Made by a program: the position numbers and the translations under genes
NCBI RefSeq assembly: GCF_002775205.1
Contig: NC_036456.1
Span: 25,331,850 to 25,395,849, forward strand
From: Xiphophorus maculatus
Lineage: Eukaryota; Chordata; Actinopteri; Cyprinodontiformes; Poeciliidae
Length of the DNA: 64,000 nucleotides
Direction: 5' to 3'
The notes under the pieces: generated by a model
Told to the model about the DNA's origin: nothing
Databases searched by the model: none
Seen by the model: only the letters and a program-made list of their open reading frames with translations
Part shown: piece by piece, positions 5,126 to 63,168 of the stretch
Position numbering within the stretch: the stretch's first letter is position 1
Layout of the letters: each line of letters starts with the position of its first letter

Positions 5126-35885
<30,760 letters not shown>

Positions 35886-37489: not shown

Positions 37490-40400
37490 ATGGCGTTTTT
37501 ACGCTGTAGAAGAGATCCCTGTGGTGTTATTTGCCTGGTTTTAACTTATTTCAGCGTGTTTTACGCGGACTATGTGGTCATACAGTATGTTCTCATCCCT
37601 GCCTACGCTGACAGGTCAGTAACGGAAGTTTTAATCCCGTTTAAACCGTTTAAAACAGCCGACATGGCGTCTGTTTCTGTTCGCTGCCTCTCCATTCATT
37701 TAGCAAACAGGTCTGACAGCATCCCGAGTCTACTCCGAAAACGGTCGTTTTATAATGTATCTTTTTTACTTTTAATCACAAGTATCAGCGAGTGTGTGAG
37801 TTTAAGGTGGATATTTGTAATAATTAAAATCAGATAAATCCTTTTAAAAGACAACAAACAAAAACATTAGCTGTTTGCTAACTGGGTTTACGTCAGTTGA
37901 TGTCATCCTGCTTGTGCGTTTTTTTATAGAGCAACAAAATCTCTTGAATATGAAAAAGAAAAACTTGCTTTAAGTTTTAAACTTGTTTATGATGCAGTTC
38001 GTTGGCGACAGCTTTGAACATTTTAAAGTGTTGATTTAAAAAAAACAAACTAAACAACAACAACATGAAGCTGCTTTCAGTTCTCTTTTTCTTTACATGT
38101 GATCATTGACCCATGTGACCCAGTCTGTGAAATCATCAGTCATGATAGAAACACTTTCTTTTATTTCCAATGCACATAAAAAAGCTGGTTTTAAGGGAAC
38201 AAAAACACTTAAAAGGTTGAACCGCAGATTGTTTATTCAATGCATCTGCTGTAGAATAAACTAAATGTTTGTTTTCTGAGACACTAAGTGAATTTTCTCC
38301 TGCTGCTTCTCTCTAACAGCGTTTGGGGAATGCTGCATGGATCCTTGTTCAACCTGATCCTGCTGCTGCTGCTGGCCTGCCACTCCAAAGCCGTCTTCTC
38401 AGATCCTGGTTGGTCAAAGTCACTAAACGCTTCAGCTGCAGACTCTTTTCTTCACAGTTACTGTTGCAACGCTTGGTCTTAGTAATCATGCATACAAACT
38501 TTATTTAATGTTCTGTCAGTTAAACTCACAAAGAGTTTAAATTCAACTGTCAGACTTACTTTATTTTTTAAACCAACAACTCATATCTGTCTGATGTGTG
38601 AAATATTTGCGTTTAAGAGCTAACCAGGGTTTTGTAATCCTTTAGATTTGTAGTTTCATTCCAGGTAAAGCAAATTATCAAGTAAAACGTTAATATAACT
38701 CGGAGCTGAGCGATACACAACTAGACAACACTGCAAAAACACACAATTTTACCAAGTATTTTTGTTTCTAGTGTAAATATCTTGGTACACTTAAAATAAA
38801 ACAAAACTAACTCACAAGTAACTTTTAAGAAAAATGTAGCAATCTGTCTCTGCGTTTCGTGTTTCGTATCCGTGTCTCCAGGCATGGTGCCGCTCCCGGA
38901 CACGGCCTTGGACTTCTCAGACCTGCGATCTCAGTCGTCTCGGATGAACGAGCGGGTCAGTTTCTCACCATCTCTGTTCAAAAGTGAAGGAGGTTCTGAT
39001 GGCTGAGTTTGATCAAGTTGAATTATTTTCTTGTTTTAGCTTGTTAAATGTTGAAAATGTGCCGTTTTCTTAAATTCTATTTGGCTCCTGATGTTTGGTA
39101 AAAAAAAAAAAAAAAGAAAACGGTCCATGCTGGTGAGTTGAGAGGCCCTGGTCGGTTCTGACTCGATCGGTTCTGCAGAACCTCTGTGAGCCTCTGGTGG
39201 TTGTTGTTGTCAGGGCTGTGAGGGCTGGACTGTGTGCAGCCGCTGCGAGACATACAGACCTCCCAGAGCGCACCACTGCAGGGTCTGCCAGAGGTGCATC
39301 CGCCGCATGGACCATCACTGTCCCTGGTGAGACCGCACACGTCCATCCATCCATCCATCCATCCATCCATCCATCCATCCATCCATCCATCCATCCATCC
39401 ATCCATCCATCCATTTTTTTCTCTTGTCTTCTTCATCTTCCTCTTCCTCCATTTTTCAGGATCAATAATTGTGTCGGGGAGTTGAACCAGAAATATTTCA
39501 TCCAGTTTCTCTTCTACACCGGTGAGTCGCTACAGAAATCTGTTCTCTCCATTTTTACTGTGATTAAAAAAAAAACAAAAAAAACAAGCAGTTCTTCCAC
39601 CTTTAATCACTTTTACCAACAAACCAGACAAACCAAACTGCCTGGTTTACTGGAATCAGACCTGAACTGGGTCCCAGCTCAGACCTGGCTGAGTCTTGTG
39701 TTTTCATTTGTGTGCATGCAGGCGTCGCCAGCCTGTACTCCATGGTTCTGGTGGTGTGGGCCTGGGTGTGGCGGATCCGGAACGAGAGGGAAGGCGACGC
39801 CGACAAGGAGGGAGACGAGTCGCCGAGCAAACATCTGATAGTGTGAGTTCAGTGGACAGCAGGGGGCGCACCTGTGGGTGTTGAAGCTTCCTGTTCACGG
39901 TGCGTTTCCTCTTGTCTCTGGGTCAGAGCTCATTACCTCATCCTGCTGGTGGAGTCGGTTCTGTTCGGGGTGTTTGTCATGGTCATCTTCTACGATCAGG
40001 TAGGAACGGCTCTGTTTCCTGCCTCTGAACTGATCCTGGACTCATTTACCTCCAAAAACACAAAATCTTACCAAGTGTAAATGTCATAGTACACTTGAAA
40101 TAAGACAAAAGTAACGTAAAAGGTCATAGAGGCTTATTTCAAATCGATAATTCCTTAATAATTGAAACTAGTCCCATTGGCAGATTATTTAACTTAAAAC
40201 AAGACATTCTTCCCATGTTTCAGTATTGAAAATGCTTGAATGCTTCTTGAATTTTACTGTGGGAAAAGTTTACAAACCCTGATATGTTTATTTAAGATAT
40301 AAAAAACATGTTTTTAAAATAAAACTCCTCAACTGGTTCAAATTCTGTAAAAAAAAAAAAAAAAAAAGAAAAAGATAAATAAAATAAATGTTGTTAGAAG

Positions 40401-42610: not shown

Positions 42611-45229
42611 TTCTAATAATTTTTCATTATAAATCTTAATCCCAATCTGATGGAGTCCAACAGCAAACCTTTAAACACCCAAACAAGCTTAAATATTTCA
42701 GTTTCATGTTTCAGGAAATTAGTTAATGTCACTTTTAAAACAGCCACCAGAAACTTTAATACTCAGCAGTTTGTGCTGAATTTTACTTCAGCATCAAGGT
42801 AGAAGAAAAAAGTTTTCTCAATTAATTTAATTCCTTTTTTGTTGTTGACATCATCAGCAAACAGAAAAATTTCCATCACCATGATTGACTTATTTAGCCG
42901 TTTTATTGTTTTTATTTCTCAGCAGCGCCCCCTGCTGTTTATTACAAAGGTTTCTGGTCTTTATGAAGAAATTTTACAAGTTCAAAAACTCAGGAAACTT
43001 CTATAAATGTGGATAAAAATGATTTGCGTTTAAATACAAATGAAATTAGCAGGTTAAATTGGGAATCATTTCTTATTTCAGTCGTTTAATTTTGTGTAAG
43101 TAAATTGATTAATCTGTCAAGTCTAGATGATTTAATAATACTTTCATGATAGGTCTATATTTATGCTGTATTTACAGATTCACATTAATGCTAAACACAA
43201 ACAGGTGCAATTCAACATCCATGAAGAGCTTTTTTTTTCTACTTTTATTTTTATTTTTTATGACTTTTGCTCAGTCAGAATACGCTCACTCTACGTTTTC
43301 TGTTACAGAACTGAAGAGACTATTAATTACATATTTATCATTTCTAACTGTGATTATAAATGTTTACTTTTATGTAAGGGATGAAGTTGCCTTTCCACAC
43401 AAAATAAAGTTTAAATTTCTGCTTAATTGATGAGAAGAGTTTGTCCTTTAGGGGTTCTGCTCATTTCATCCCTTTTCTTTTACCTGATTCCCACAAGATA
43501 TTTCAGTGTTAATTTATCTGACTAAAACTAGTAACTAAAATATTTTGCCAACTTCTTTTTAAAGCTGCAAGTTGCTTTTAGGACAGCAACTTGCAGTTTT
43601 AGCTCCAATTTACTTCAATTTGAACTGATTCACCCACATTACCAAGTTAATAACGAGTGTTTCTATAGATTTTATTAAGATTTCTAGACTTAAACCAAAG
43701 ATTTAGGTGTAATGAATTACATAGTTTGTGTTTTAAATGTCATAAAGAAGCTAATCAGTGTCTTAGAGCTCAGATAGCATTTCTAGCTAGAGCTAACTGA
43801 TGTAGCTAAAGAGCATTTAAATATCCAGTATTTAAACTGTATTAGTGCAAATAACCAAACCAAAGATGGAAACCTAACAAAAAAATAGGATGTTATGTTT
43901 AAACAGGTTTATTTAATACAAATAAATATTAAGGACAGCAGTAGAGCAATTTCTGCAACTAGCCAAGCGGTGCTAGCCATCAGCTAGCTATTCAGTCATT
44001 TTTCATTTAGTAATAAAGCCCAGTGTCTGTTGTTGCTAGCCAACATTTGGGAAGTTTTAACCTGTTAAAGTATGACAATGTTTGTAATCATGTTAGAAAA
44101 ATGTGGCAGAACACACAAAGGGTTCCTAAAAACTGAAATAGGTCATTTTGAAAATGAAAATGTTTCAAAACAAAGACACAAAGGCAACTTCATCCCGTTT
44201 GTGTTTTTATATAAATGTGTTTATAGGTATTTTGAATTGTGTGTCCGGCGTGGGTTCAGACACACAGGTGCTTTATTGGCTTATGAATTATTCTCAGTGT
44301 CACAAAAAGCATCACAAAAAGAGCTGCTAATTGAAAAGATGGAATAATAAAAAAAAATGTTTTCATTGAATTATGTTAATTTGATCACTTTAATTAGCCT
44401 CTACCAATAACACGCCACTCGGTGTAAAAATGTGGTGAATATATTGGAAAGAAATTATGAGAAACTTGGAGAGATTCACAATTTAACCAGGTTAATTTCT
44501 TTTAAAGCATGGTTCATATTACTTATTAGTTACAGTTTCATTATGCCAGAGTAAAACCAGATATTTGGTTAAAATACAAATCAAAATTAATCAGATCACG
44601 AAACTGGACCTGAAACAATTCCTCAGTTTAAGTTATTCTGAACAAAAATGAAACAAAACTTAAAAAACATAAAGACAGTGAACATTAGTTAACTGGAAGT
44701 AGGTTTAAAAAATACAAATTTGTATGTTTCCATTTATTTTCTAGCTAAAATGGATAAAATGTTTGATAAAACTGCAGATTTGATTTAATTGGTTGATAAA
44801 AATTACTGATTGTTTGCAAACATTTATTAAATCTCTTTAATACTGTGTTTTAAATAATTTCTTTAAAACACACTGACATTTGTAAAATGGTTTCTCCATT
44901 GGGGAAAGAAAAAAAACTCTCTGGGTTCAGTTGAACAGAAGCTGCTGTTCTGCTGGTAGTTTGTATGATGTTAACATGATTTCTGAAGGTTTCTCATAAC
45001 TTCTGTCCGCTGTGGTAAATCCTGGTCCGGTTCTGGTTCTGTGTGTGAAGGTTCATGTTTTATACTGACTCGTTATGAAGGGAATCGTCAATGAGTCTCT
45101 GAGATATTTATTTTGATTTCTAACATTATCGTTTTGTAAAAAGGTTTGAAAGGGAAAGGAAACTCAAAGATTTATTATTTGAAGTTGAATTTATTTTAGT
45201 GAAGCACCTGAAAATATTTCAGACTCTTG

Positions 45230-45233
<4 letters not shown>
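42611..45233. other. Intergenic AT-rich DNA, no gene recognised
   Basis: This is the middle of the 5.4-kb spacer between the DHHC gene and the minus-strand secreted gene, which converge on it. GCTAGC-rich words occur at about 43780-44040. An AATAAA at about 43403 could be a distal polyadenylation signal. I see no exon. Confidence 0.45.

Positions 45234-45315
<82 letters not shown>
45234..45315 (+). repeat. (TG)41 microsatellite
   Basis: An uninterrupted TG tract of about 82 bp, ending in GCGTGC. Such alternating purine-pyrimidine tracts can adopt Z-DNA. The 90-codon frame with a (CV)n run across it is an artefact. Confidence 0.95.
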
Positions 45316-45319
<4 letters not shown>

Positions 45320-45430
45320 CTATCAGGGTGCTGGTTTCCTTGGTTGTGATAAATGCAGTTGATCTGTTTTTCCGTTTTTATTTTATTTTATTAGGGTGCG
45401 CTTGTTTTGATTCATCTCAGCTCTCCATTA

Positions 45431-45745
45431 CACTGCAAAAACTCAAAGTCTTACAAGTATATCGGATCTAGTTTCTACTGCAGATATATTAGTTTTGTCT
45501 TATTTCAAATGTACTGTAATTTCTTGATATTGATGGAAAAAGGTCCAGTACATTATTTCACTTATAATAAGGGAAAAATCTGCCTGTGGAACTATTACTT
45601 ACTCTGAAGTTTTTATGAATTTGTTTACTTAAAACAAGATCATATTTCTTGCTGAAAAGTTATTTGTAAGTTAGTTTTATCTTATTTCAAGTGTACTGAG
45701 ATATTTTGACTAAAAACTAAACAAATAGAGTTTGTTTTTGCAGTG
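45431..45745. mobile_element. Family B element, complete copy
   Basis: It starts CACTGCAAAAACTC and ends TTTTTGCAGTG, so both terminal inverted repeats are present. The total length is 315 bp. The internal palindrome and the words 'ttgtcttatttcaaatgtact' and 'aagttatttgtaagtt' are kept. Bases just outside (TTA and TAG) allow a TA target duplication. Confidence 0.8.
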
Positions 45746-46998: not shown

Positions 46999-49900
46999 TT
47001 AAACACCAGATGTCGCTGTTGCATTGGCTAGCATGCTGCTGCTTTTCAGAAGAAGCAGAGCGCTGTCAGATGGCAGCCCCATGCTCACCAGCTCATCTTT
47101 AATCTGGAAAATAATTTATTTATTTAAAAAAAAAATCTAAAATCTATCACTTTGTTCAAACTCAAAATGGTTTTGCTTTTGCCTTCAGATTAAACAAAAA
47201 ATAATCTGCATAAACTTTGTTTTAACTTATTAAACGTAGCAAACATTGGCCCTAAGGATGTTAGACTCAATCTGAAAACGAAGAGATTAACAGATTATAT
47301 AAATTTCTACGCAAAGTCCATCAAAGAACATGATGTTGGTTATTCAAGAAAGAGTAGCTCTACGTAATCATATTTTTACTCAAGTAAAAGTAAAAAGTAT
47401 TTGGTAAAAAGGCGACTCAAGTCCTGAGTAACTAATCAAATTATCAATCATTTAATATTTAAAAATTACATCATCAGACAGACCAAAGCATAAAGTTAAA
47501 TGGACATTTTGATATTTTATGTACAAAAGTGACAGTAATTCTGATAAGTAACTAAAAAAATAACAAAATCAGGCAAAAGAAAATTTTTCCAAATCAGTTT
47601 CTTTTAATAAAAAACGTATGAAACTTTAACAGAACTGCAGGTGTCTGTCTGGTGAATATTTGATAAAAACATGTTTGTTTTTCATTCACTGGGAAGAAAA
47701 TCCAGAAGTTTTACTCAAGTAAGACCAGAAATACTTCATAATACAATTACTCAAGTACCGTGATCCTAAAAATGTATTTATTTATTTTTTTCAAAAAACT
47801 TACTTAAGTAAATGTAAATTTAACTGGCTACTACCCAACTCTGTTGGTAATAATTTCACCATCATTACAAATTAAAACTCTTTATCTGCATCTATGTGCC
47901 AAATTCGTATCGTATCGAATTCATTCGTTTGTTCGGCCACACAAAAATCAGTCCAAGTTCCAGGAACGGCCCCCGGGCCACCCTTTGGACACCCCTTATT
48001 GTAAGTGATAAGAAATGGGGAGAAGCAGCAACACTCTGTAGTTTCCAGCCAAAAACTCACCTTTTGCAGGACGACTTCGTTGACACTTCCTCCTTGTGAC
48101 AATGAAGACAAAACCTTCATGTTCAATCGAACCACCATCCCTACAGGACAGCAGGTTCAGAGCAAGTCAGTGGAGATTTGAACCGGATCATGCGTTTAAT
48201 AAACAAGCATAATTGAACCGAAAGTACTTGGACTGACAGATCAAGATGAGATCGAGGAGTTTACTCACCAAGCTCGACTTGCACAATGACGCATCGAAGC
48301 TCAGAGTGATACTTCGCTGAACTGTGACAAGAGAGAATTGATTCAATGAACTGCAGACCAGCGGTGTGCAAAGTGCACAAACAGTGTTTTTAAAGCTATA
48401 GCATCATTTCTAGTAGAAATATGTTAATGCACTTGAAATAAGACAAAACTATGTTAAAAGATATGGGAGCTTGTTTTAAGTAAACAATTTCTTAATTGTG
48501 AAGAAGAGGGACTAATTTTATTGGCAGATAAATCCACTTATAACAAGACGATTTCCCCATGTTACAAGTGAAATAATCTGCCAATGGATCTAATACTTTT
48601 TCATTAATATCAAGTAATTGTTTACATAAAACAAACTCCTGATAAGTTACTTTTGTCTTAATTCAACTGTGCTAAGATATTTGTGCTAGAAACTGGACAA
48701 AAATCCTTGATTGTGTGTTTATGTAGAGATGATATGCAGGTTTTATTGTTGAGAAGAATCACAGTAAGCTAATTTTTGCATTTTTAATTTAATGAATTTT
48801 GTGACCCTGCAGTAGTTTAAATTTGCTAGTTTTGGACACCACTGGTGTAGAGCACAGTTAACTTCTTTCAAAAAGCTGAATATAGATCTCTAGACTTTAA
48901 GTATTTGAGCCAACTATTAGAACAGGAAACCAAATAAACTATATATTGAACAAAGAACCATCGTTATGTTGCAGATCAGAACGTTACCTTTCCATTATCC
49001 CACTGCTTACCTGCCTTTCTTCCACCGAGCTCCAGAGATTAATACACACTTTTCTTGTGTCCCAACATGCTTGAAACAGGCAATAGTTGAATGTAGACCA
49101 GACTTCCTCAAACTGTGCACTGGTTATTTGACATAGCATGAGCTTAAAGTGCAACAGTTGGCTTATTGTGTTAAAGATAATAATGATAAGTGGCTTATCA
49201 CCAAGTCATTCGAAAGAAAAGCTGAACATACCAGTGACAAAAACACAATGCCATCGGCAGACAGATCAGGAATGTTTATGTTAAGATTTGAGCGCTATGA
49301 GAAACTCTGAGAGTCTTTGACAGCCCAGCAGTCAGTTTTTATCTCAAACAGAGAAGTTCAAGTATTGTGACGTCTTGCTGGCCATAGCTGGAACAAGAAG
49401 CAGGAGATGGACGGATACAAAGCAGATCTTGCGATTTACCGGTATGTCTACGTTCCAACCCTGATCTGTAGTCAAAGGATCTAGATCACGGCCAAAAGAA
49501 TGAGATTCTAGATAAAAGTGGCTGAAGTTAATTTCCTTCAGAAATCTACCAAACAAAACAGAACCGAGTTCAGTAACTAAACTATGTCTTCAGTGCAGGT
49601 TGGCATTCAAATCCTTTCAGTGTTTGTCCTGTTTTTGAGAAAACAAAAAAGCTGCCAAACAACCAATCAAACATCTGAGGAGGGCGGAGCCACTGAGAGT
49701 GAGAGCTGAGCACCGAAAGGGAAAAAAAGTGGAAACTTGCTCATTTGATGAAAGTTGGCTCTTTTTGCTCACTATAAAGAAAGGATTCTCAGATTTAGAT
49801 AATTTATGGGCTTTTTTCCCTAAAAATAATATCCCTATTTATTGATTATTACATTTCACATATTTGGGGTTTGACTAATAATTTCTTGTGTTATTTATAC

Positions 49901-52900
49901 ATATTGTATATTTTAAAAAATCCAGCTGATACTTTATTAGAAGATACTCACTTCAGCGTTGCCTGGACAACGAAACAGATGGGGTGGCTCTCTCCTTCTT
50001 CATTAACTGATGGCGCCCATGTCAGAGTGAAGTTTCCAGATCCTGATGAATTCTTAACCACACCGGCCGGCCCGCTGAACAGCAGCTCAGAGATTCTTTA
50101 AAACAGAAAAGAAAACATACATTTCATAGAACAATGAGATCAATAAGTGAACTTATGATTACAGCAATACTATCAATCATATCAAACCTTTGATTCATAT
50201 TTCTGAAGTTATTGTTAGTCAAAAACAAACTATTTTGTTTGGTTCTTTGTCTTGATTTAACCTTTATCTTATTGAAAACAATTGAAATAACTTTTTTTCT
50301 TGATGACACAGACCTGTGATATTCTAGAAACAGGTTGAATACTTAAGATTTAATAAACAAATTCAATGCAGTGAGGAATTTCAGATGGCATTTTCAATGA
50401 AACAGGGTGAAGCTAACACTAGGAACATTTTTTGTTTCAAAAGTACCAATAAAATGTGCCAAATATGTACCACCAATGCCTGTTGATGCATATTTTACAC
50501 ACACCAAAGACTAAATTGGAGGCACTTTACCATCTAGTGGTTAAAGTTATGCCACCTTTTTACTTGGCTAAATTAATATCTATGATAGGTTTGCTAATAT
50601 TAAACTTCTACCAAATAGACATTAGTAATACTAAAACTTATAACTGGTAAAAGAATTTGTACAAAAGGTACAACTGGATTTTGCATGAAGTATTTAAGGT
50701 CAAGCCACATTTTGAATGGAGGAGATGTTTTGGTCTTCACTCACGTAGCATTAGCAGCCTCGGCAGCGATGCTAATTGTCAGGGGTTGATTCACGTTGGA
50801 GAGAAACGTGGCTCTGTGTTCTGGAGTTGGAGGAAGAAACTTTGGAAGAAACAATCCTTCTGTGCAGGATGGTACCACAGGGTCCACTGTAATGAAACAG
50901 AGAAGCACCTCAGTCAATGTAAAAAAAAAATAAAAAAATGCAGGTGATATAACCTAAAATCAATTTATTGGGCGGATCATCTTGAACTTCCCATCAAGGT
51001 AGTTCAAATGTTTTATCTTTTATCAAACTATTTGTGTTGGAAGTGTGAAGTTTTATTTCTCCACTTTGCTGAACATAATTTGCACTCAGCCTCATTTTGT
51101 CACCTTCGTTCACCTGGAAATGCCTCCATGCCGCCGGCATTGCTCCTCCTCTTCTACCCGGCTGGTTAAAGTCTTTTATAAATACAGTACAACTACACAC
51201 ACAGTATCGAACGATGTCGGCATCGGCTCATCCCTATTTAAAGTCACAGTACCGCCCAAACTGCTATGTCTGTGCGATGTTACAAGCTCTACTGAGAGTT
51301 TAAGATAGAAACTCTTACCACGTAAAACAAACTGGAGTGGTATTTTGCTGATTGCCTGACTGGTCGTTTTGGTTTCTTGAGCCCCATAAACACGAGTCAA
51401 TGTAATAGTTTGCTGTGGGAAATCCTCCAGTACCAGCTGCACTGCGTACGGACCTTCACTGGTGCTATTGGTGCTGTTGAAGGAGAGAGTGCAGGACTGC
51501 ACAGAAAACCATTGGTTTAGTCAGAGGAAGCATTTCATGCTGCATAAACCTGCATAGAGGTGGAAGGTTTTACTGCTTGTCACTCACTGATGTCAGGTTT
51601 AGGACAGATGGAGGAGCACAAGGGTTACATTCATACAACGAATCAGATCCAAATCTGCATTTCACGTTGTCTCCATCAGGGTCAAACGCCATCAAGTTGA
51701 AATCTCTTTGACAGTTTGAAGGAACCCTGAAAGACAAAAGTTACTGGCTGTTGTCTTCACTCAACGTTTCATTCTCATCCCAGCTTTTGTTTTTCAGCGT
51801 TGAACTGGAACACAAACGTCTTTATGTCTCGCTGAACCTGTCACCCTTCTGGTTTTCTCAAAGTTTCTGCCTTTCTGACGCTCTGTTCACGTTACCCTTA
51901 TTTCTGACAAGTTCTGACTGTTTTATTTTATTTAGGTGTTATCCATCTTTGTCTGTCTTCAAACTCACGCATTTTCATCGTCGGAACAAAAGCACATTTT
52001 TGGCAGTTATCCTCAATAAGATCAAAACATCTCAAATTCCAATCAACTGACGGATCTTTGTGGTTGTTGTTAGTCGACTAACAGGTTCTTCAAGGAAGCT
52101 TCTGTTGAACTTTGGGATAAACAGTAAACATATTTTAAGAGTTTGTTACGTATACTGCTCTTTCTTTTTTTAGTTATTCTCAGTTATCTCTGTAAACTTG
52201 ATCCAAAAAAATGTACACTGCAAAAACGAAAAGTCCTACCAAGTATTGTTGGTCTAGTTTCTAGTAAAAATATCTCACTACACTTAAAATAAGACAAAAC
52301 TAACTTACAAGTTACTTTTCAGCAAGACATAGGAGCATGTTTCCAGTAAATAATTCCTTAAAATTGATAAAGAAGTACTAATTAGATTGACAGATTATCA
52401 TTACAAAACATTTTTCCCTTGTTATAATTAAATAATCTCCCAATTGAACTAGAACTTTTTCATCAATATTAAGGATTTACTTGCTTAAAACAAGCTCCTA
52501 TTTCTTGCTGAAAAGATACTTGTAAGTTAATTTATGAATTTCTAGGCAAGGCCCATGTGAACTTAACTGTCTTTTTTAATGTTAATATAACCAGTAAGCA
52601 CTGGGTAGACTTCCTGTGAACCTGTAATGTGGGAATCTGAACCACAATAACTATTCAGGTGCAGAACATGACATGAACTGGGACATCAACGCAGCAATCA
52701 TGGAGTAAAACATGCTAAAAACATGCAGCAACTTCAGCTTAGGAGGCAAATCCAGAGAAAATTTAGATAACTGGAACAGAAATGATCTTAGCAGCTACGT
52801 ATTTTAAGTGTATTAGGATATTTACTCTAGAAACTCCAACAAAAATACTTGGTAATATTTATTGTTTTTGGAGTGCAGTGAAGATGCGTACCTCACAGCT

Positions 52901-53754
52901 GGAATGATGGTGCTCTGAGGGGAAATGTTTGGCTTTTTGGTATCCGATCGTATTCCCAGTTCCACAAAAGTCAAAGCTCTCCAAGCCACAACGTTATTTT
53001 GGGTATAATATATCCAGTCGCCACCCGCAAGCCTTTAGTGGAAAAAGAAACTCATATAAAACAAATATGGTAATAAGGCTGTTTCTGAGTCTTGAAAATG
53101 ATCATATAGCTTTTATAAAAAAGTAGTTTAATGTTCTTGTGCTTTTTCTGACAAACAATTTGTTGTTCCAGACAGAAGTTGATCACAAAAAAGTCTGTTT
53201 ACTGCTAGAAAAGTAACTAAAATGTATTTTTTGACTAAAGAAAATGACAGAAAAACCAAAACCAATCAATAACAACACTATAACTCAAAATATTTCACTT
53301 TATGACATGAACAATTTACCCCCAAGATGTAGGTAAATGTTAAAAGCAACTGCAATGCGTGTTTTTTAAAAGCGCCCTTACACAAGCTGGGCTAAATAGT
53401 ATGGATAAATAACTGTAGTCATCGTTCCTTCTCGCTGACACCATTCACCGCTGGGCTCCATGTCGATCTTCTGCAGTGTGGGAGTCAGGCTCCCACAGTA
53501 ACCACTGCAGTACCAGTAGTCATAGTGGCTGCAGGAGGTGAAGCCCAGCTTGTAGCGTAAACTCACCTGCAGAGTTAGAGGCAAAAATGTTCAAATAAAC
53601 ACAACCCCACCTGTAGATGCTAATAAATGGAGTTATTAGGTACCGTTACGGATCCATCTTTATGAACTTGCTTTGGGTAGTAGGTCATCATTGTGCCCAA
53701 AAAGTGAGAGGCGTGTGTGCCGCTGAGCAACAGCAGCAGCACCAAGCGCAGCAT
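46999..53754 (-). CDS. Secreted cysteine-containing protein of unknown function, paralogue without mucin domain, 10 exons
   Basis: Exons in transcript order: 53754-53644, 53566-53382, 53032-52892, 51726-51588, 51496-51319, 50886-50745, 50095-49952, 48321-48269, 48140-48061 and 47103-46999. Frame is kept across all GT-AG junctions, giving 425 residues. A signal peptide is clear (Leu-rich, ending SGTHA at 15). The ectodomain has paired Cys motifs (YWYCSGYCG, GEWCQREG), then FDPDGDNVKCRFG, then ECNPCAPP, an SEGPYAVQLVLEDFPQQTI segment, VPSCTEGLFLPKFLPPTP, and a YHSELRCVIVQ segment. There are several N-glycosylation sequons (NIS, NLT, NST, NAT, NFT). No transmembrane helix or GPI-type tail is visible, so it is probably secreted. 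The fold and function are unknown to me; I recognise the pattern only as a recurrent uncharacterised fish family. The gene next to it (54977) is its divergent paralogue. Confidence 0.87.
47345..47845 (-). repeat. Interspersed repeat family E, copy 2, in the last intron of the secreted gene
   Basis: It carries TTTTTACTCAAGTAAAAGTA at the left, ACTCAAGTAAGACCAGAAAT and AATTACTCAAGTACCGTGAT in the middle, and 'cttacttaagtaaatgtaaa' then 'ctacccaactctg' at the right. This is the reverse of the TACTTGAGTA pattern at 32800-33535. Confidence 0.6.
48382..48725. mobile_element. Family B element in intron 7 of the minus-strand secreted gene
   Basis: It begins CAGTGTTTTTAAAGC and contains 'cacttgaaataagacaaaact', TTGGCAGATAAATCCACTTA, its inverse TACAAGTGAAATAATCTGCC, and 'gctagaaactggacaaaaat'. 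The terminal repeats are degraded. Confidence 0.7.
52204..52880. mobile_element. Family B element interrupted by about 280 bp of foreign sequence
   Basis: The left part runs from ACACTGCAAAAACG to about 52521 (ACTTGTAAGTTAA). The missing right part, ATTTTAAGTGTATTAGGATA to TTTTTGGAGTGCAGTG, resumes at about 52800. The sequence between them (52522-52800) does not belong to the family. The whole lies in intron 3 of the minus-strand gene, and its right end is about 10 bp from the exon at 52892. Confidence 0.7.
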
Positions 53755-54976: not shown

Positions 54977-57900
54977 ATGTTGCCGTCTGTGTTGCTGCTG
55001 CTGTTAATCAGCGGAGCTCAGGCTGCTTATTATGGTGCAGTCTTTACCTACGCCGTTGGAAACCTTCCGCCAGGTGGATATCCAGTAAGTTGAGCTTCCT
55101 TATTAATACTGTATTATATTTTATTCTGGTAAAAAAACAAAAAACAAGATGTGTTTACGAACTCTTCACTGTGAATCCACAGGCAGTCAAAGACTTTAAG
55201 GCGAGCTTCAGCTCATGTGAAGAGTTCGACTCTCGGGTTTGTTATGGAGACTGTAGTGGGATGCCAGTTTATCCAGTCGATGAAATCAGAGGTGAATGGT
55301 GTCAGAAGGGATACACTTGGAGTTACTACCCTTCATATCTGGGTGTAAACAATGGAGAGTAAGTCTACTTCAGCATTAAATGGAAACGTATTTTATTATG
55401 TTCGTATTATTGTAACCAAGAACAGTGTTTCCTAAACTCCTGCAGGACAGATCCATCAGTTGGGCTGATTAGGTTATAATCAGATGGTAGAAAATATCTA
55501 GTTTTGTCTGTTTTTAGAGAGAGAGAGCGTTACATGCTTACATTGCAGAACTGTATCATCCACTGTAGGTTTGATGCTACAAACTGGATAGGAAACAGAA
55601 ATGGGATTGAAACGTCAAAAGCAGTTTTGCACTTTGACTATAGAAAACGTTCTGACATCAACAAACCAAACTCATCACCCCAAACCGCCATCATCCCCAT
55701 GTTCAGGTAATTCTGGTTGTCATTTTTAATTTCATTAAAAACAGACCTTTTAATTGACAGCAGAGTATTTAGATGACTGTTGTTTATGTTTTGTTTCATA
55801 ATCATTACAGATGAAACTCTGTGAATCCGTCATACTGAACCAGAGACCAGAGTTACACGAAGCTACAGATTGTTATCGTCATAAAAAATTAACAGTTGTT
55901 CCTATTTCTTTTAAAACAAAATCAGTTAGATGAGTTCACTCTGACCCAAAATTCATTTTGGTTCAAAGTGAACATTAATCAACTTAAAACAAGTGATTGG
56001 ATAAATCAGTGTTACATAAATTTAACTAAATTTGTTCTGTAGAGACAGCTCACTATGAAACTAAAACATAAAATGATGAAAAACAAAATATTCTGGGGGA
56101 AATAACCTTTTATTTTTAAAAATAATCAAACAAACACATGAGAGGACTGGATGTAACTTATGTTCTGTGTTTCTTTTTCTCTCAGAGTTCCTTCAAACTG
56201 CCACAGAAACATCAACTTGTCGGTCTCTGACCCAGATGGAGACGACGTTCGATGCAGATATGCAGCTGATCCAGAGTGTTTCACCTGCACACCTCCACCT
56301 GTCCTCAACGTTTCATCAGTGAGCATCAAATGTTGACATTAAAGAAACCAGGTTTTCTTATTTTTTTATTACATGTGACCATTGAGTGAGTTAGAAAGAG
56401 TTCACCCCTCTGGGACGCATTACTTAACTTTTTAAAACTCTCATGAAGCTGGAAAACCTGAGAGCAAAGTGGTTTTCTTAAGTCAAAATGAAAATATTAG
56501 TTAGATATATTAGTAATATTAGTTTGAGGCGTCTTGAACCTGTCGAGCATCTGTCTAAAAGTAAAATATATTTGTTTCTCTGTTTCATTATCTGTTGAAT
56601 GATCCCACTGGAACCTGACATGTTTTGTTGAATCTTATTTATAGTAAAATCACAATAAATAAATGTAAGTATTTAAATTCAGTTTTAATTTGGACCCTTT
56701 TCTCCTCCTCTCTGTTCTCTCCAGTCTTGTTCTCTGTCATTCAGTCCCACTAACAGCAGCGCTGAAGGTCCGTATGCGGTTCAGATGGTGGTGGAGGATT
56801 TTCCCAGACACAACGTCACTCTGACTGATAGCTTTGGTGTTCAGTCGGTGAAAACTACCAGCGCTGCCATCAGCAGAATCCCTGTCCAGTTTGTTTTCAG
56901 AGGTAAAACTGCATCATTTGATTCACCTAAAGTACATGAAGGAATGCGAAAACAAAATTTAACCACAGCGAGAAATATCTGGTTAGATTAAATACTCTCC
57001 CTCCGGCATCATGTTGTTTGATTTAATAACCAAACCGACCAGTTCCTTTCAGCTTGAATTAATTTGTTTCTTTGTTATTTTCTTCCAGTGGATCCTGCAG
57101 CTCCGTCCTGCACAGAAGGTGAATATCTGCCCAGGTTTCTGCCTCCAACTCCTGAACATGGAGCTCAGATCCTCACCAACTTTAACCAGGCTCTGAAAAT
57201 CAGCATCAGAGCAGAAGCAACCCAGGCTGAGTGAGTGATCAATACAGGAACTTCATAACATTAACTTTTCAGACAGAATAGAAGCTAATCTGATGTATTA
57301 AATAACCCCAATCCATTTAAGTAACATTGATGCTTCAAAAATAAAATGAAATAGCAAAAGATTTTTGGGTAAATTTTCTCTAAGCCTAAAATTATTGTTA
57401 AAAAAAACCTATAAAACTACAGGAATTGTCCAAACATTACTGATGTTATTGAAAACATGCTGCCAATGGCAACACAAACGGTTGTTTTTGCATGTAGAGA
57501 CGCTTTGGAAATATCAGTGCAACAAACTGTTTATTTCCTGTTTATTAAAGGATCTCTGAGCTCCTGTTCAGCGGACCGCCCCGTTTAGCCAAGAGTTCAT
57601 CTGGATCAGGAAACTTCACCCTGACATGGACACCACCTGCCAGTGACGGAGGACTGAAACAAACTATCTGCTTTGTTGTCCAGGCAAAGTTAGGGCTTTA
57701 TCTTATTAATGCAAGGGAAAAAAGCTTAAATTATGAATTTAGCTCTGTGCTGCTTATTGAAATAAAGCTGGTTCACAGCAAAGGCTTTGCAGTACATGAG
57801 CCCTGTTAGGTCTAGCTGAGGGTTCATCTCAGTCTTTGCATGTTTGGCACCAAAACCAATGAGAATCTATGTGGTTTGCATGAAAATGAAGGATAATTCT

Positions 57901-60900
57901 GACCCATCTGCTCATTTAAACTTTAGAAACACTGAGTGCAGAGACACCGAGACATAAAGTTATGAGCTGGCTGGAAATGTTGTGGTTTTCTCTCAAACTG
58001 GTCCAAGACTGGAACCTTGAGGAACTTCAGAAATAATTTTAGTTCACCCAGTTCAACCATTAAAACTGGTAAAATTTAATGGTGCTACTGTGTGCTACTA
58101 TGGGTCTGAACCATTTTGGATAAACACTGAAGCATGCAAATGAATTGGAAACACTCCTTGTTATGTTCTGGATCCAAACATAAGGGGAAAAAAACTCATC
58201 TAACCAGTTTCTGATACACACAAGGAGAGAAAAAATTCAAATGAGTAAACAAATTAGTACCTATTTTATAACGTTGCATTTACTGTAGGAAATAACAAAT
58301 GTTAAAACAAACAGTTTTAATTAAAACATGGAAGTCTCATGTGCTCATGCTGTTTACCAGCAGTTAAAAAAAACTTATGCTGAAGGTTTCATGTCTTAGA
58401 TGCAACTTATTTTGACTCCTAAAGATTAAAACTTACATCCAGCAGCAGTTTAACACGTCACCTGGATTCCAGCTTTTGCACAAATTTAGATGCTGAAGCC
58501 AAGATTTTACATTTTGATCACAACAGAATCATAACTGTGTTGAGCTAAAATCTTGTATCTCTAGCAAAGATTTTTGCACTGTATTGATTTTGTTGAAGTT
58601 GTTGTTTTAAGACTTAAACTGAAACGATTAGTTGTTTTAATAATTTTCCATCTAAGCTGTTGCTCTAATTACCTCCCCAGTTCCTCCGGCTCTGTGTACC
58701 AGTCTGACCTTCGATGCGTCTTTGTGACGACTGGAAACAGTGAGTGGAAATCAGTTTGGTCTTTAGGAGGAATTCAATTTGACTTTTCCTTAATGATAAC
58801 ATGCTGCTCTGTTACAGCGCCTGTTCCCCCTCCAACTACGGCTGCACCCACATCACCACCACCACCCAGTTATAGACTCATGTCTAGTTTAACAACCCAA
58901 CCTTCAGTTACCCCTCCACCAACAACAACTACACTCACAACTACAACCAGCCAACTCACCACAACTACATCTCCACCACCAACAACTACACTCACAACTA
59001 CAACTACATCTCCACCAACTGCAACTTCGGTCACAACTACAACCAGCCAACCCACCACAACTACATCTCCACCACCAACAACTACACTCACAACTACAAC
59101 TACACCTCCACCAACTGCAACTTCGGTCACAACTACAACCAGCCAACCCACCACAACTACATCTCCACCACCAACAACTACACTCACAACTACAACTACA
59201 TCTCCACCAACTACAACTACAACCAGCCAACTCACCACAAACCACCACAACTACACCTCCACCTACTACATCTACGACTATGCTGACTCCTACTACCAGT
59301 CTACTCCACCAACTGCACCCCCAATTACAACCAGCCAAACCACCACATCTCCACCAACTACAACTCTCACAACTGCAACTACACTCACAACTACAACTAC
59401 ACCAACTGCAACTTTGGTCACAACTACAACCAGCCAACCCACCACAACTACATCTCCACCACCAACAACTACACTCACAACTACAACTACAACTACACCT
59501 CCACCACCAACAACTACACTCACAACTACACTCACAACTACACCTCCACCAACTGCAACTTCGGTCACAACTACAACCAGCCAACCCACCACAACTACAT
59601 CTCCACCACCAACAACTACACTCACAACTACAACTAGACCTCCACCACCAACAACTACACTCACAACTACACCTCCACCTCCACCAACTGCAACTTCGGT
59701 CTCAACTACAACCAGCCAACCCACCACAACTACATCTCCACCACCAACAACTACACTCACAACTACAACTACATCTCCACCACCAACAACTACACTCACA
59801 ACTACAACTACACCTCCACCAACTGCAACTTCAGTCACAACTACAACCAGCCAACCCACCACAACTACATCTCCACCACCAACGACTACACTCACAACTA
59901 CACCTCCACCAACTGCAACTTCGGTCACAACTACAACCAGCCAACCCACCACAACTACATCTCCACCACCAACAACTACACTCACAACTACAACTAGACC
60001 TCCACCACCAACAACTACACTCACAACTACAACTACATCTCCACCACCAACAACTACACTCACAATTACAACTACACCTCCACCAACTGCAACTTCAGTC
60101 ACAACTACAACCAGCCAACCCACCACAACTACATCTCCACCACCAACAACTACACTCACAACTACAACTACATCTCCACCAACTACAACTACAACCAGCC
60201 AACTCACCACAAACCACCACAACTACACCTCCACCTACTACATCTACGACTATGCTGACTCCTACTACCAGTCTACTCCACCAACTGCACCCCCAATTAC
60301 AACCAGCCAAACCACCACATCTCCACCAACTACAACTCTCACAACTGCAACTACACTCACAACTACAACTACACCAACTGCAACTTCGGTCACAACTACA
60401 ACCAGCCAACCCACCACAACTACATCTCCACCACCAACAACTACACTCACAACTACAACTACAACTACACCTCCACCACCAACAACTACACTCACAACTA
60501 CACCTCCACCAACTGCAACTTCGGTCACAACTACAACCAGCCAAACCACCACAACTACATCTCCACCACCAACAACTACACTCACAACTACAACTAGACC
60601 TCCACCACCAACAACTACACTCACAACTACAACTACACCTCCACCACCAACAACTACACTCACAACTACAACCAGCCAACCCACCACAACTACATCTCCA
60701 CCACCAACGACTACACTCACAACTACACCTCCACCAACTGCAACTTCGGTCACAACTACAACCAGCCAACCCACCACAACTACATCTCCACCACCAACAA
60801 CTACACTCACAACTACAACTAGACCTCCACCACCAACAACTACACTCACAACTACAACTACATCTCCACCACCAACAACTACACTCACAATTACAACTAC

Positions 60901-63168
60901 ACCTCCACCAACTGCAACTTCGGTCACAACTACAACCAGCCAACCCACCACAACTACATCTCCACCACCAACAACTACACTCACAACTACAACTACATCT
61001 CCACCAACTACAACTACAACCAGCCAACTCACCACAAACCACCACAACTACACCTCCACCTACTACATCTACGACTATGCTGACTCCTACTACCAGTCTA
61101 CTCCACCAACTGCACCCCCAATTACAACCAGCCAAACCACCACATCTCCACCAACTACAACTCTCACAACTGCAACTACACTCACAACTACAACTACACC
61201 AACTGCAACTTCGGTCACAACTACAACCAGCCAACCCACCACAACTACATCTCCACCACCAACAACTACACTCACAACTACAACTACAACTACACCTCCA
61301 CCACCAACAACTACACTCACAACTACACCTCCACCAACTGCAACTTCGGTCACAACTACAACCAGCCAAACCACCACAACTACATCTCCACCACCAACAA
61401 CTACACTCACAACTACAACTAGACCTCCACCACCAACAACTACACTCACAACTACAACTACGCCTCCACCAACTGCAACTTCGGTCACAACTACAACCAG
61501 CCAACCCACCACAACTAGATCTCCACCACCAACAACTACACTCACAACTACAACTACATCTCCACCACCAACAACTACACTCACAACTACAACTACACCT
61601 CCACCAACTGCAACTTCGGTCTCAACTACAACCAGCCAACCCACCACAACTACATCTCCAACACCAACGACTACACTCACAACTACACCTCCACCAACTG
61701 CAACTTCGGTCACAACTACAACCAGCCAACCCACCACAACTACATCTCCACCACCAACAACTACACTCACAACTACAACTAGACCTCCACCACCAACAAC
61801 TACACTCACAACTACACCTCCACCTCCACCAACTGCAACATCGGTCTCAACTACAACCAGCCAACCCACCACAACTAGATCTCCACCACCAACAACTACA
61901 CTCACAACTACAACTACATCTCCACCACCAACAACTACACTCACAACTACAACTACACCTCCACCAACTGCAACTTCGGTCACAACTACAACCAGCCAAA
62001 CCACCACATCTCCACCAACTACAACTCTCACAACTGCAACTACACCAACTGCAACTTCGGTCACAACTACAACCAGCCAACCCACCACAACTACACCTCC
62101 ACCACCAACAACTACAACTACACCTCCACCAACTGCAACTTCGGTCACAACTACAACTACACCTCCACCACCAACGACTACACTCACAACTACAACTACA
62201 CCTCCACCAACTGCAACTTCGGTCACAACTACAACCAGCCAACTCACCACAAACCACCACAACTACACCTCCACCTACTACATCTACGACTATGCTCACT
62301 CCTACTACCAGTCTACTCCACCAACTACAACCAGCCAAACCACAACAACAACTACACTTCCTGGAACCTCCATCACAACCTCAGCGCTGGACGCAGGACC
62401 ATGTAAGTTGACTTTAGAGAGCATCACCAAACCTGGTAAATGTAGACTGTTTCATGAAGCCTTTTATTATCAAATATGTCCTTTGGACACCCAAAAATGT
62501 GTTTTGAAATTGTGTAAAAAGATGTACAAAGTAGCCACTATTCATAGTTCAGATTCAAATATTATTTAGATGCATGACATTTTCTTTTTTACTTTCATGA
62601 ATGTGATTAATTTCAACCTGCTGCTCCGTCCACAGTTACAGCTCCTGTTGCCCCTCCGGTTACATCTGCACCCCTGAGTTAATTATCCTGGTGAATAGTA
62701 ATGTTGACTCTCTGTGCTTCTAGATTATGTTTTGGCTCTAAATGCAAAGATCTCCACCACACTGTCAATGGAGACTGACTCTGGAACCATCATAAACCTG
62801 GTCAGTAACCTCCTTCACGTTAATATTAATGACAACAGTTTCATTCTGGTCCAACAGGTTCCGCTGTTTCTGCAATAAACTGTTTTGTTTTTATCTTGTG
62901 GATTGATTTCTTGTACTTGAATAGTAAAAATATTACTCTATCTTAAGAAATTTGTAAGTGTATAACCCATTTAGCCCAAAGCACCAAATCTCAACTTTGA
63001 TTTTTAGCATGAAAATGTACTTTAGTTTTGTTCTGTGTGGCTTATTGTTTATATAATGTGTTTTTTCTTCAGATCGAAGATGAGCTGATAAGACAAGGAC
63101 TGCCGTCAGACATAATGGTGGAGCTGCTCAGCAGTGGAGCAGTAAAATTTACAACAGTCGCCCCCTAG
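54977..63168 (+). CDS. Secreted mucin-like protein of unknown function, paralogue with Thr/Pro/Ser domain, 11 exons
   Basis: Exons: 54977-55084, 55183-55358, 55569-55706, 56186-56318, 56725-56902, 57089-57230, 57551-57688, 58681-58739, 58818-62402, 62724-62800 and 63073-63168. Frame is kept throughout to TAG, giving 1,609 residues. A signal peptide (LLLLLISGAQA) is followed by an ectodomain homologous to the neighbour at 46999-53754: GEWCQKG, SDPDGDDVRCRYA, ECFTCTPPP, SAEGPYAVQMVVEDFPR, PSCTEGEYLPRFLPPTP and YQSDLRCVFVT. Exons 5 and 6 have exactly the same lengths as in the paralogue (178 and 142 nt). Exon 9 (residues about 358-1552) is an uninterrupted Thr/Pro/Ser array that would be heavily O-glycosylated. 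The C-terminal 57 residues (YYVLALNAKISTT.., IEDELIRQGLPSDIM..) resume the shared domain and end TTVAP without a membrane anchor. The role is unknown; a mucus or surface-coat protein is an inference. The donor of exon 7 (GTTAGG) is weak. Confidence 0.87.
58900..62345 (+). repeat. Coding Thr/Pro/Ser tandem array with higher-order repeats
   Basis: The basic unit encodes variants of TTTSPPPTTTLTTTT and PPPTATSVTTTTSQPT. Longer blocks containing a Tyr/His-rich island recur; the marker TATGCTSACTCC begins at 59279, 60251, 61076 and 62291. The spacings of 972, 825 and 1,215 bp are all multiples of three, so the frame is never broken. Copies 1-3 of the long block are nearly identical, and copy 4 is diverged (Asp to His, shortened). 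Because the array lacks stop codons in several frames, long His/Leu/Gln-, Val/Gly- and Cys/Trp-rich shadow frames appear on both strands. Confidence 0.93.
62636..62682 (+). pseudogene. Relic or cryptic copy of the 5' end of the mucin exon
   Basis: TTACAGCTCCTGTTGCCCC, followed by CTCCGGTTACATCTGCACCC, resembles the acceptor and start of exon 9 at 58812-58850 (TTACAGCGCCTGTTCCCCC, then CTCCAACTACGGCTGCACCC). In the phase required by exon 9 it reaches a TAA at 62680-62682. No GT donor precedes the stop that would restore phase. It is therefore best read as a dead exon fragment within intron 9. Confidence 0.6.

Follow-up and report, generated by a model that had tools for sequence, protein, structure and literature searches.

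Tyrosine-rich islands in a mucin-type exon of Xiphophorus maculatus: a candidate compensated frameshift amplified within a repeat array

The host gene, its mucin exon and the islands

We analysed 64,000 nucleotides of the Xiphophorus maculatus genome (NCBI RefSeq assembly GCF_002775205.1, contig NC_036456.1, positions 25,331,850 to 25,395,849 of the forward strand), a stretch referred to here as the window, which contains a head-to-head pair of related genes. The plus-strand gene of the pair, the host gene, carries a long Thr/Pro-rich mucin exon whose repeat array is interrupted by four short Tyr/His-rich islands, and a compensated frameshift followed by amplification is in our view their most probable origin. 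The features are listed in Table 1, with positions counted from the first base of the window. In the host gene model the frame was open across the exons to a stop at 63168, with GT/AG at 10/10 introns. The mucin exon was assigned by its architecture, a tandem-repeated Pro/Thr/Ser-rich domain being present across 1195 residues. Because both splice junctions fix the frame of the exon, the coding reading of the array is Thr/Pro, and the islands are read as Tyr, His and Asn.

The host protein is predicted to be secreted, the hydrophobic N-terminus MLPSVLLLLLISGAQA being a putative signal peptide, and the gene is presumably expressed. A hydropathy scan revealed no 19-residue window above 1.6 except at the N-terminus. 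Pfam searches returned no family at E up to 1 for the N-terminal 357 and C-terminal 59 residues, and only a sub-threshold Peptidase_M3 match (E 0.078) for the mucin exon. Gel-forming mucins contain VWD, C8 and cystine-knot domains, and membrane mucins contain a SEA domain or a transmembrane segment; among Pfam families at E up to 1 and in the hydropathy windows, the host protein displayed the hallmarks of neither class. A search of PDB sequences with the N-terminal 357 residues gave 10 rows at E up to 5, the best being titin (8.1e-05) over a stretch of about 50 residues, which was not accepted as a homologue. Rfam gave no matches in the window at gathering scores.

Each island is 60 bases long and takes the place of the central part of a unit that is otherwise standard (TSQLTT ... 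TPPTA), and 4 of the 30 TSQ-headed units carry one. Copies 1–3 are identical, and copy 4 differs by a single base change, GAC to CAC, giving YAHSYY in place of YADSYY, a substitution absent from the initial annotation of this DNA. That annotation had reported four Tyr/His-rich interruptions of the Thr/Pro array, at 59279, 60251, 61076 and 62291; all four were located in the mucin exon, each of these positions lying 39 bases within an island. It had further noted that reading one base later restores normal mucin-type sequence, and we obtained Q-TTTTTPPPTTSTTMLTPTTS in that reading; the NYT N-glycosylation sequon that it described was seen once per island in 4/4 copies, with no other sequons in the mucin exon. 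Among the residues of the exon, 28/29 Tyr, 9/9 His, 8/8 Asn and 7/8 Asp lie inside the islands. An intron hidden in the mucin exon was considered and rejected: the islands preserve the frame, and no splice pair was found in them by eye.

Table 1. Positions, strands and supporting evidence of the features described
Feature	Position	Strand	Description	Basis
Host gene	54977..63168	+	11 exons, 1609 aa	gene model from sequence
Mucin exon	58818..62402	+	3585 nt, phase 1-1, AG/GT flanked, 81% Thr+Ser+Pro, 30 TSQ-headed units	splice sites, open frame, composition
Island copy 1	59240..59299	+	NHHNYTSTYYIYDYADSYYQ	motif location, frame model
Island copy 2	60212..60271	+	identical to copy 1	motif location, frame model
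Island copy 3	61037..61096	+	identical to copy 1	motif location, frame model
Island copy 4	62252..62311	+	one substitution (D to H)	different outer flanks; 12-base stretch after island absent
First shift point	59238..59241	+		in-frame match overlaps frame-displaced match by CAA
Island 5' part	59242..59263	+	22 bases identical to array at 62082, displaced one frame	exact match
Island 3' part	59264..59299	+	T/P-type in +1 frame by codon content only	codon model
Second shift point	59296..59303	+	probably +2, CTACATCTAC-like to CTACCAGTCTAC	in-frame match resumes 59304
Head-to-head paralogue	46999..53754	-	10 exons, 423 aa, without mucin exon	gene model, alignment

Reading register across the islands

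Read one base early, a Thr codon (ACN) turns into NAC. Conversely, Tyr, Asn, His and Asp codons ending in AC necessarily read as Thr one base later, so a Thr-rich +1 reading alone is weaker evidence of a shift than it appears. Three tests of the shift were therefore combined, namely a codon-frame model of the array, back-translation nulls, and a DNA identity test that is independent of codon choice, in which exact matches of at least 12 bases were sought between 59220-59339 (copy 1 with its flanks) and the array outside the islands.

In the identity test, exact matches starting at 59220, or at or after 59304, were all in frame, and those within 59238-59264 were all displaced by one frame, the longest covering 22 bases. 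At the left edge, 59220-59240 was identical in frame to the array from 58944 onward, and 59238-59255 gave an exact 18-base match to 60542 and 61367, displaced by one frame; exact matches to ordinary units, in the displaced register, extend over 59238-59263. At the left edge the DNA itself therefore shows the switch: exact array matches change frame there, at the ACAAACC junction where the initial annotation had postulated a frameshift. At the right edge, 59304-59317 was an exact in-frame match to 18 places in the array. Array matches are back in register after CAGTCTACTCCA, close to which a second, frame-restoring shift had been proposed in the same annotation.

At switch costs of 1e-3, 1e-6 and 1e-9 the codon-frame model assigned a shifted frame to the four islands and to nothing else, and training on either half or on the whole of the array gave island edges agreeing to one base. 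Read in the +1 frame, the island scored +22.0 bits under the array codon model; 1003 in-frame array windows averaged 33.3 (standard deviation 7.5), and 20,000 base shuffles reached at most 12.1 bits. Back-translations of the island peptide with the codon usage of the gene pair, in which 67/112 Tyr, Asn, His and Asp codons end in C, reached the observed score in 0/20,000 cases; with C-ending codons favoured 10:1, 122/20,000 did so. C occupies position 3 in 17/19 island codons and position 2 in 941/1103 array codons. The 3' part alone scored +13.5 bits in the +1 frame, a value reached by 11/20,000 back-translations with gene pair usage, and the score of the best alignment of 59264-59303 to the array was reached by 5/500 base shuffles.

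The mucin exon was also inspected in its other frames. The +1 frame is open from stop to stop over 58893-62411 (1172 residues, rich in Gln, Leu and His), and the other shifted frame contains 10 TAG codons; the array is therefore more tolerant of shifts in one direction than of those in the other. Coding in the +1 frame was considered and rejected, the 1172-residue open frame being nevertheless incompatible with the splice phases.

Origin and amplification of the islands

Starting from what was directly observed (a register switch and two edges, four copies, an open frame and matching splice phases), we regard a compensated frameshift followed by higher-order repeat amplification as the best account of the islands, with a probability of roughly 0.85; the direction of change (Thr/Pro first) and the order and nature of the two changes are our inference from the array. 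An out-of-register join in one TSQL-headed Thr/Pro unit, probably of net +10 bases (+1 in frame), would have displaced the next ~60 bases by one frame. The passage would then encode Asn, His, Tyr and Asp instead of Thr and Pro, because ACN read one base early is NAC. A second change, probably +2, near CTAC-CAG-TCTAC would have restored the frame before the following unit, and the island-bearing unit would have been carried to four places through unequal exchange of repeats.

The two changes can be described in some detail. At the first shift, comparison with the units at 58946, 59042 and 59138 (3/5 units compared) gave a clean 10-base insertion, +1 in frame. The CAA overlap between in-frame and displaced matches suggests a join of two repeat copies out of register, and such a junction, net +10, may be a better description of the first shift than a point frameshift; alternatively, one A may have been inserted into a parent that is otherwise unseen. 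At the second shift, a 14-base near-repeat inside the island, near CTAC-CAG-TCTAC, differs by +2 (CCTACTACATCTAC versus CCTACTACCAGTCTAC), and under a loose switch cost the frame model enters the third frame over 59297-59300, the path expected of two single steps. On this thin evidence, the second change is probably +2.

Several observations weigh against this account of the islands or its details. The 10-base alignments need another five gaps downstream, including a second one of 10 bases; against the units at 60536 and 62072 the gaps are placed elsewhere; and direct alignment of the near-repeat stretch to an array string places its gaps differently from the +2 proposed. At a switch cost of 0.1, the codon-frame model additionally marks a small number of short segments towards the ends of the mucin exon. 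The initial annotation had envisaged a pre-shift array as the parent, which is borne out for the 5' part by its exact array matches and is not supported for an ordinary unit throughout, as there is no array match of at least 12 bases inside 59265-59303. The +1 score of the 3' part was reached by 301/20,000 back-translations with C-ending codons favoured 10:1, and the array alignment score of 59264-59303 by 228/500 same-codon permutations. The best ungapped array match of the 3' part differs at 11/36 bases (a hand count on the alignment), compared with 0/26 for the 5' part (two array places combined; Fisher p 0.0016), a contrast not readily expected from simple drift following one event. An older or lost array type may have supplied part of the patch; alternatively, the 3' part may have changed fast after the shift. 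Finally, the ancestral state is reconstructed from units within one sequence.

A variant of the same explanation replaces the two changes with a single event, in which an array-type patch was inserted or converted out of register, through template switching or unequal exchange; both edges would then be out of phase with the total length in frame, and no frameshifted intermediate would ever have existed. The three-base overlap at the left edge is what a join of two repeat copies would leave, and the unlikeness of the 3' part to present units is as expected of a patch from another donor. A single event would also spare the gene a truncated intermediate at 3/4 places: in copies 1–3, translation lacking the second shift would end at a stop after 112, 108 and 108 codons, with loss of the C-terminal part of the protein, copy 4 having no stop within the exon. 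The right edge, however, showed no such overlap, and the window yielded no donor for the patch as a whole. We consider this variant a real contender, somewhat short of an even chance.

A second possibility is that the Tyr-rich 3' part (YYIYDYADSYYQ) is older or foreign, that only the 5' eight codons are shifted array, and that the Thr/Pro-like +1 reading is a by-product of NAC codons. The missing array match, the unrejected codon-permuted null, the 301/20,000 of the C-ending null and the divergence unlike that of the 5' part all speak for it. On the other side stand the 11/20,000 back-translations with gene pair codon usage, and the fact that nothing similar to the 3' part stands out elsewhere in the window on either strand, the best score being 24, where 60 shuffles on part of the window averaged 23.6 and reached at most 30. 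On balance this origin appears improbable. An assembly or sequencing error at two points, later propagated, was rejected as highly implausible: low-complexity arrays are generally hard to assemble, but both shift points are exactly common to four copies, copy 4 has its own substitution, outer flanks and 12-base difference, and the frame is open on either side of each island.

Under the preferred explanation, a compensated frameshift, the islands would have been multiplied after their origin. Successive islands are spaced by 972, 825 and 1215 bases, and the blocks starting at islands 1, 2 and 3 have these lengths. Over 825 bases, block pairs 1-2, 2-3 and 1-3 have 10, 15 and 21 mismatches, and the gaps in the block alignments (12, 42, 66, 96, 135 and 147 bases) are all multiples of three. 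Copy 4 lies at the end of the array, where its outer flanks differ and 12 bases after the island are absent. Judging from these alignments, copies 1–3 were multiplied within longer repeats rather than as the island alone, and one origin with later unequal exchange would account for all four copies. The initial annotation had a block copied to four places; later copying is well supported, and what needs revision is the copied unit, since copies 1–3 sit inside longer repeats.

Related systems, possible function and neighbouring sequences

That new protein sequence arises in vertebrates and insects through pairs of mutually compensatory frameshifting mutations (pCFMs) is well established (Biba, Klink and Bazykin 2022, PMC8935012); the survey reports 624 candidate genes, six of which passed stringent filters (PMC8935012). 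The islands resemble the pCFMs described there in having two close frame-breaking changes and a short segment in another frame, with the rest of the protein unchanged. The pCFMs were identified in alignments of vertebrates and insects, with indels of 1-2 bases (PMC8935012); the islands differ in being deduced from repeat units of one gene, in a first change that may be +10, and in the amplification of the segment to four copies. In the features that can be tested without relatives, the locus works like a pCFM, as far as one sequence can tell: with the array standing in for the ancestor, the island DNA is homologous to it in another frame (for the 3' part by codon content only), and the frame is restored by a second change, with in-frame matches from 59304 and the gene open to 63168.

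In the MUC1 frameshift protein of autosomal dominant tubulointerstitial kidney disease (ADTKD-MUC1) the frame is not known to be restored. In the islands, by contrast, it is back after ~60 bases and the C-terminus is kept. The two systems are alike in that a frameshift in a mucin tandem repeat yields an unrelated peptide, and in ADTKD-MUC1 it is a cytosine duplication that is linked to kidney disease (PMC7248079). The sulphotyrosine cluster of PSGL-1, as presented in a review (PMC9372746), offers another likeness: its tyrosines are clustered in a mucin-like glycoprotein, with glycosylated Thr nearby. That cluster is N-terminal and its sulphation is demonstrated (PMC9372746), whereas for the islands the comparison is a works-like analogy only. 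A narrow literature search turned up no description of such a frame-shifted tyrosine island within a mucin in the titles and abstract openings inspected. A search for the island core DNA pattern in viral_contigs gave 0 matches, which says little on an animal gene. The locus is a clean candidate example of a compensated frameshift, the phenomenon itself being already known.

The composition of the island makes a ~20-residue break in dense potential O-glycosylation, with tyrosines near Asp. Tentatively, the island could serve as a window with few potential O-glycosylation sites, the exon's only sequons and clustered tyrosines that are sulphatable in principle; equally, it may be a tolerated neutral patch. 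It is doubtful that selection made the patch a sulphotyrosine/N-glycan module and spread it, giving a new functional motif from a frameshifted repeat. Compared with 998 array windows in the same shifted frame, 183 of which contain a stop, the island has 7 Tyr (array mean 3.2, maximum 6), and islands 1-3 each have 2 Asp where those windows have at most one acidic residue. Measured against present array windows rather than the parent sequence, this Tyr/Asp excess is a weak hint of selection. The Tyr-rich 3' part has diverged from the array and the 5' part has not, a pattern compatible with selection.

Thr-rich arrays lie one base away from Asn/His/Tyr-rich sequence, which makes mucins a ready store of different peptides. 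The present locus seems to have used this store; both edges are readable, and the unshifted sister units provide an internal comparison. If this is true, the birth of a motif by frameshift can be tested within one gene.

The two genes of the pair share 185/350 identical residues in the aligned N-terminal part and 19/57 in the C-terminal part. In Pfam, the paralogue matched nothing but a cystine-knot family below threshold (E 0.11; 13.3 bits, cut-off 24). The 3.6-kb mucin exon, at a phase-1 junction, is confined to the plus-strand gene. The intron phases flanking this site are the same in both genes and the paralogue lacks the exon, so the exon was gained or lost in one gene of the pair; the arrangement looks as if one of two paralogues had gained a mucin domain. 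In the intron 3' of the mucin exon, 62593-62673 is a diverged copy of the exon start and its upstream intron (58785-58849), with an alignment score of 54 compared with 29 for the best of 300 shuffles. By eye, this copy reaches a stop in the same phase; it is probably a relic of a duplicated exon start.

Elsewhere in the window, the open frames at 20399-21429, 39077-39529 and 45124-45471 run over simple repeats (HPSI-type, DGWM-type and Cys-Val runs) and are probably not genes. On the minus strand, an open frame or exon at 15370-15864 matches the kinases STK24, STK25 and MST4 over its residues 31-89 (best E 2.8e-27).

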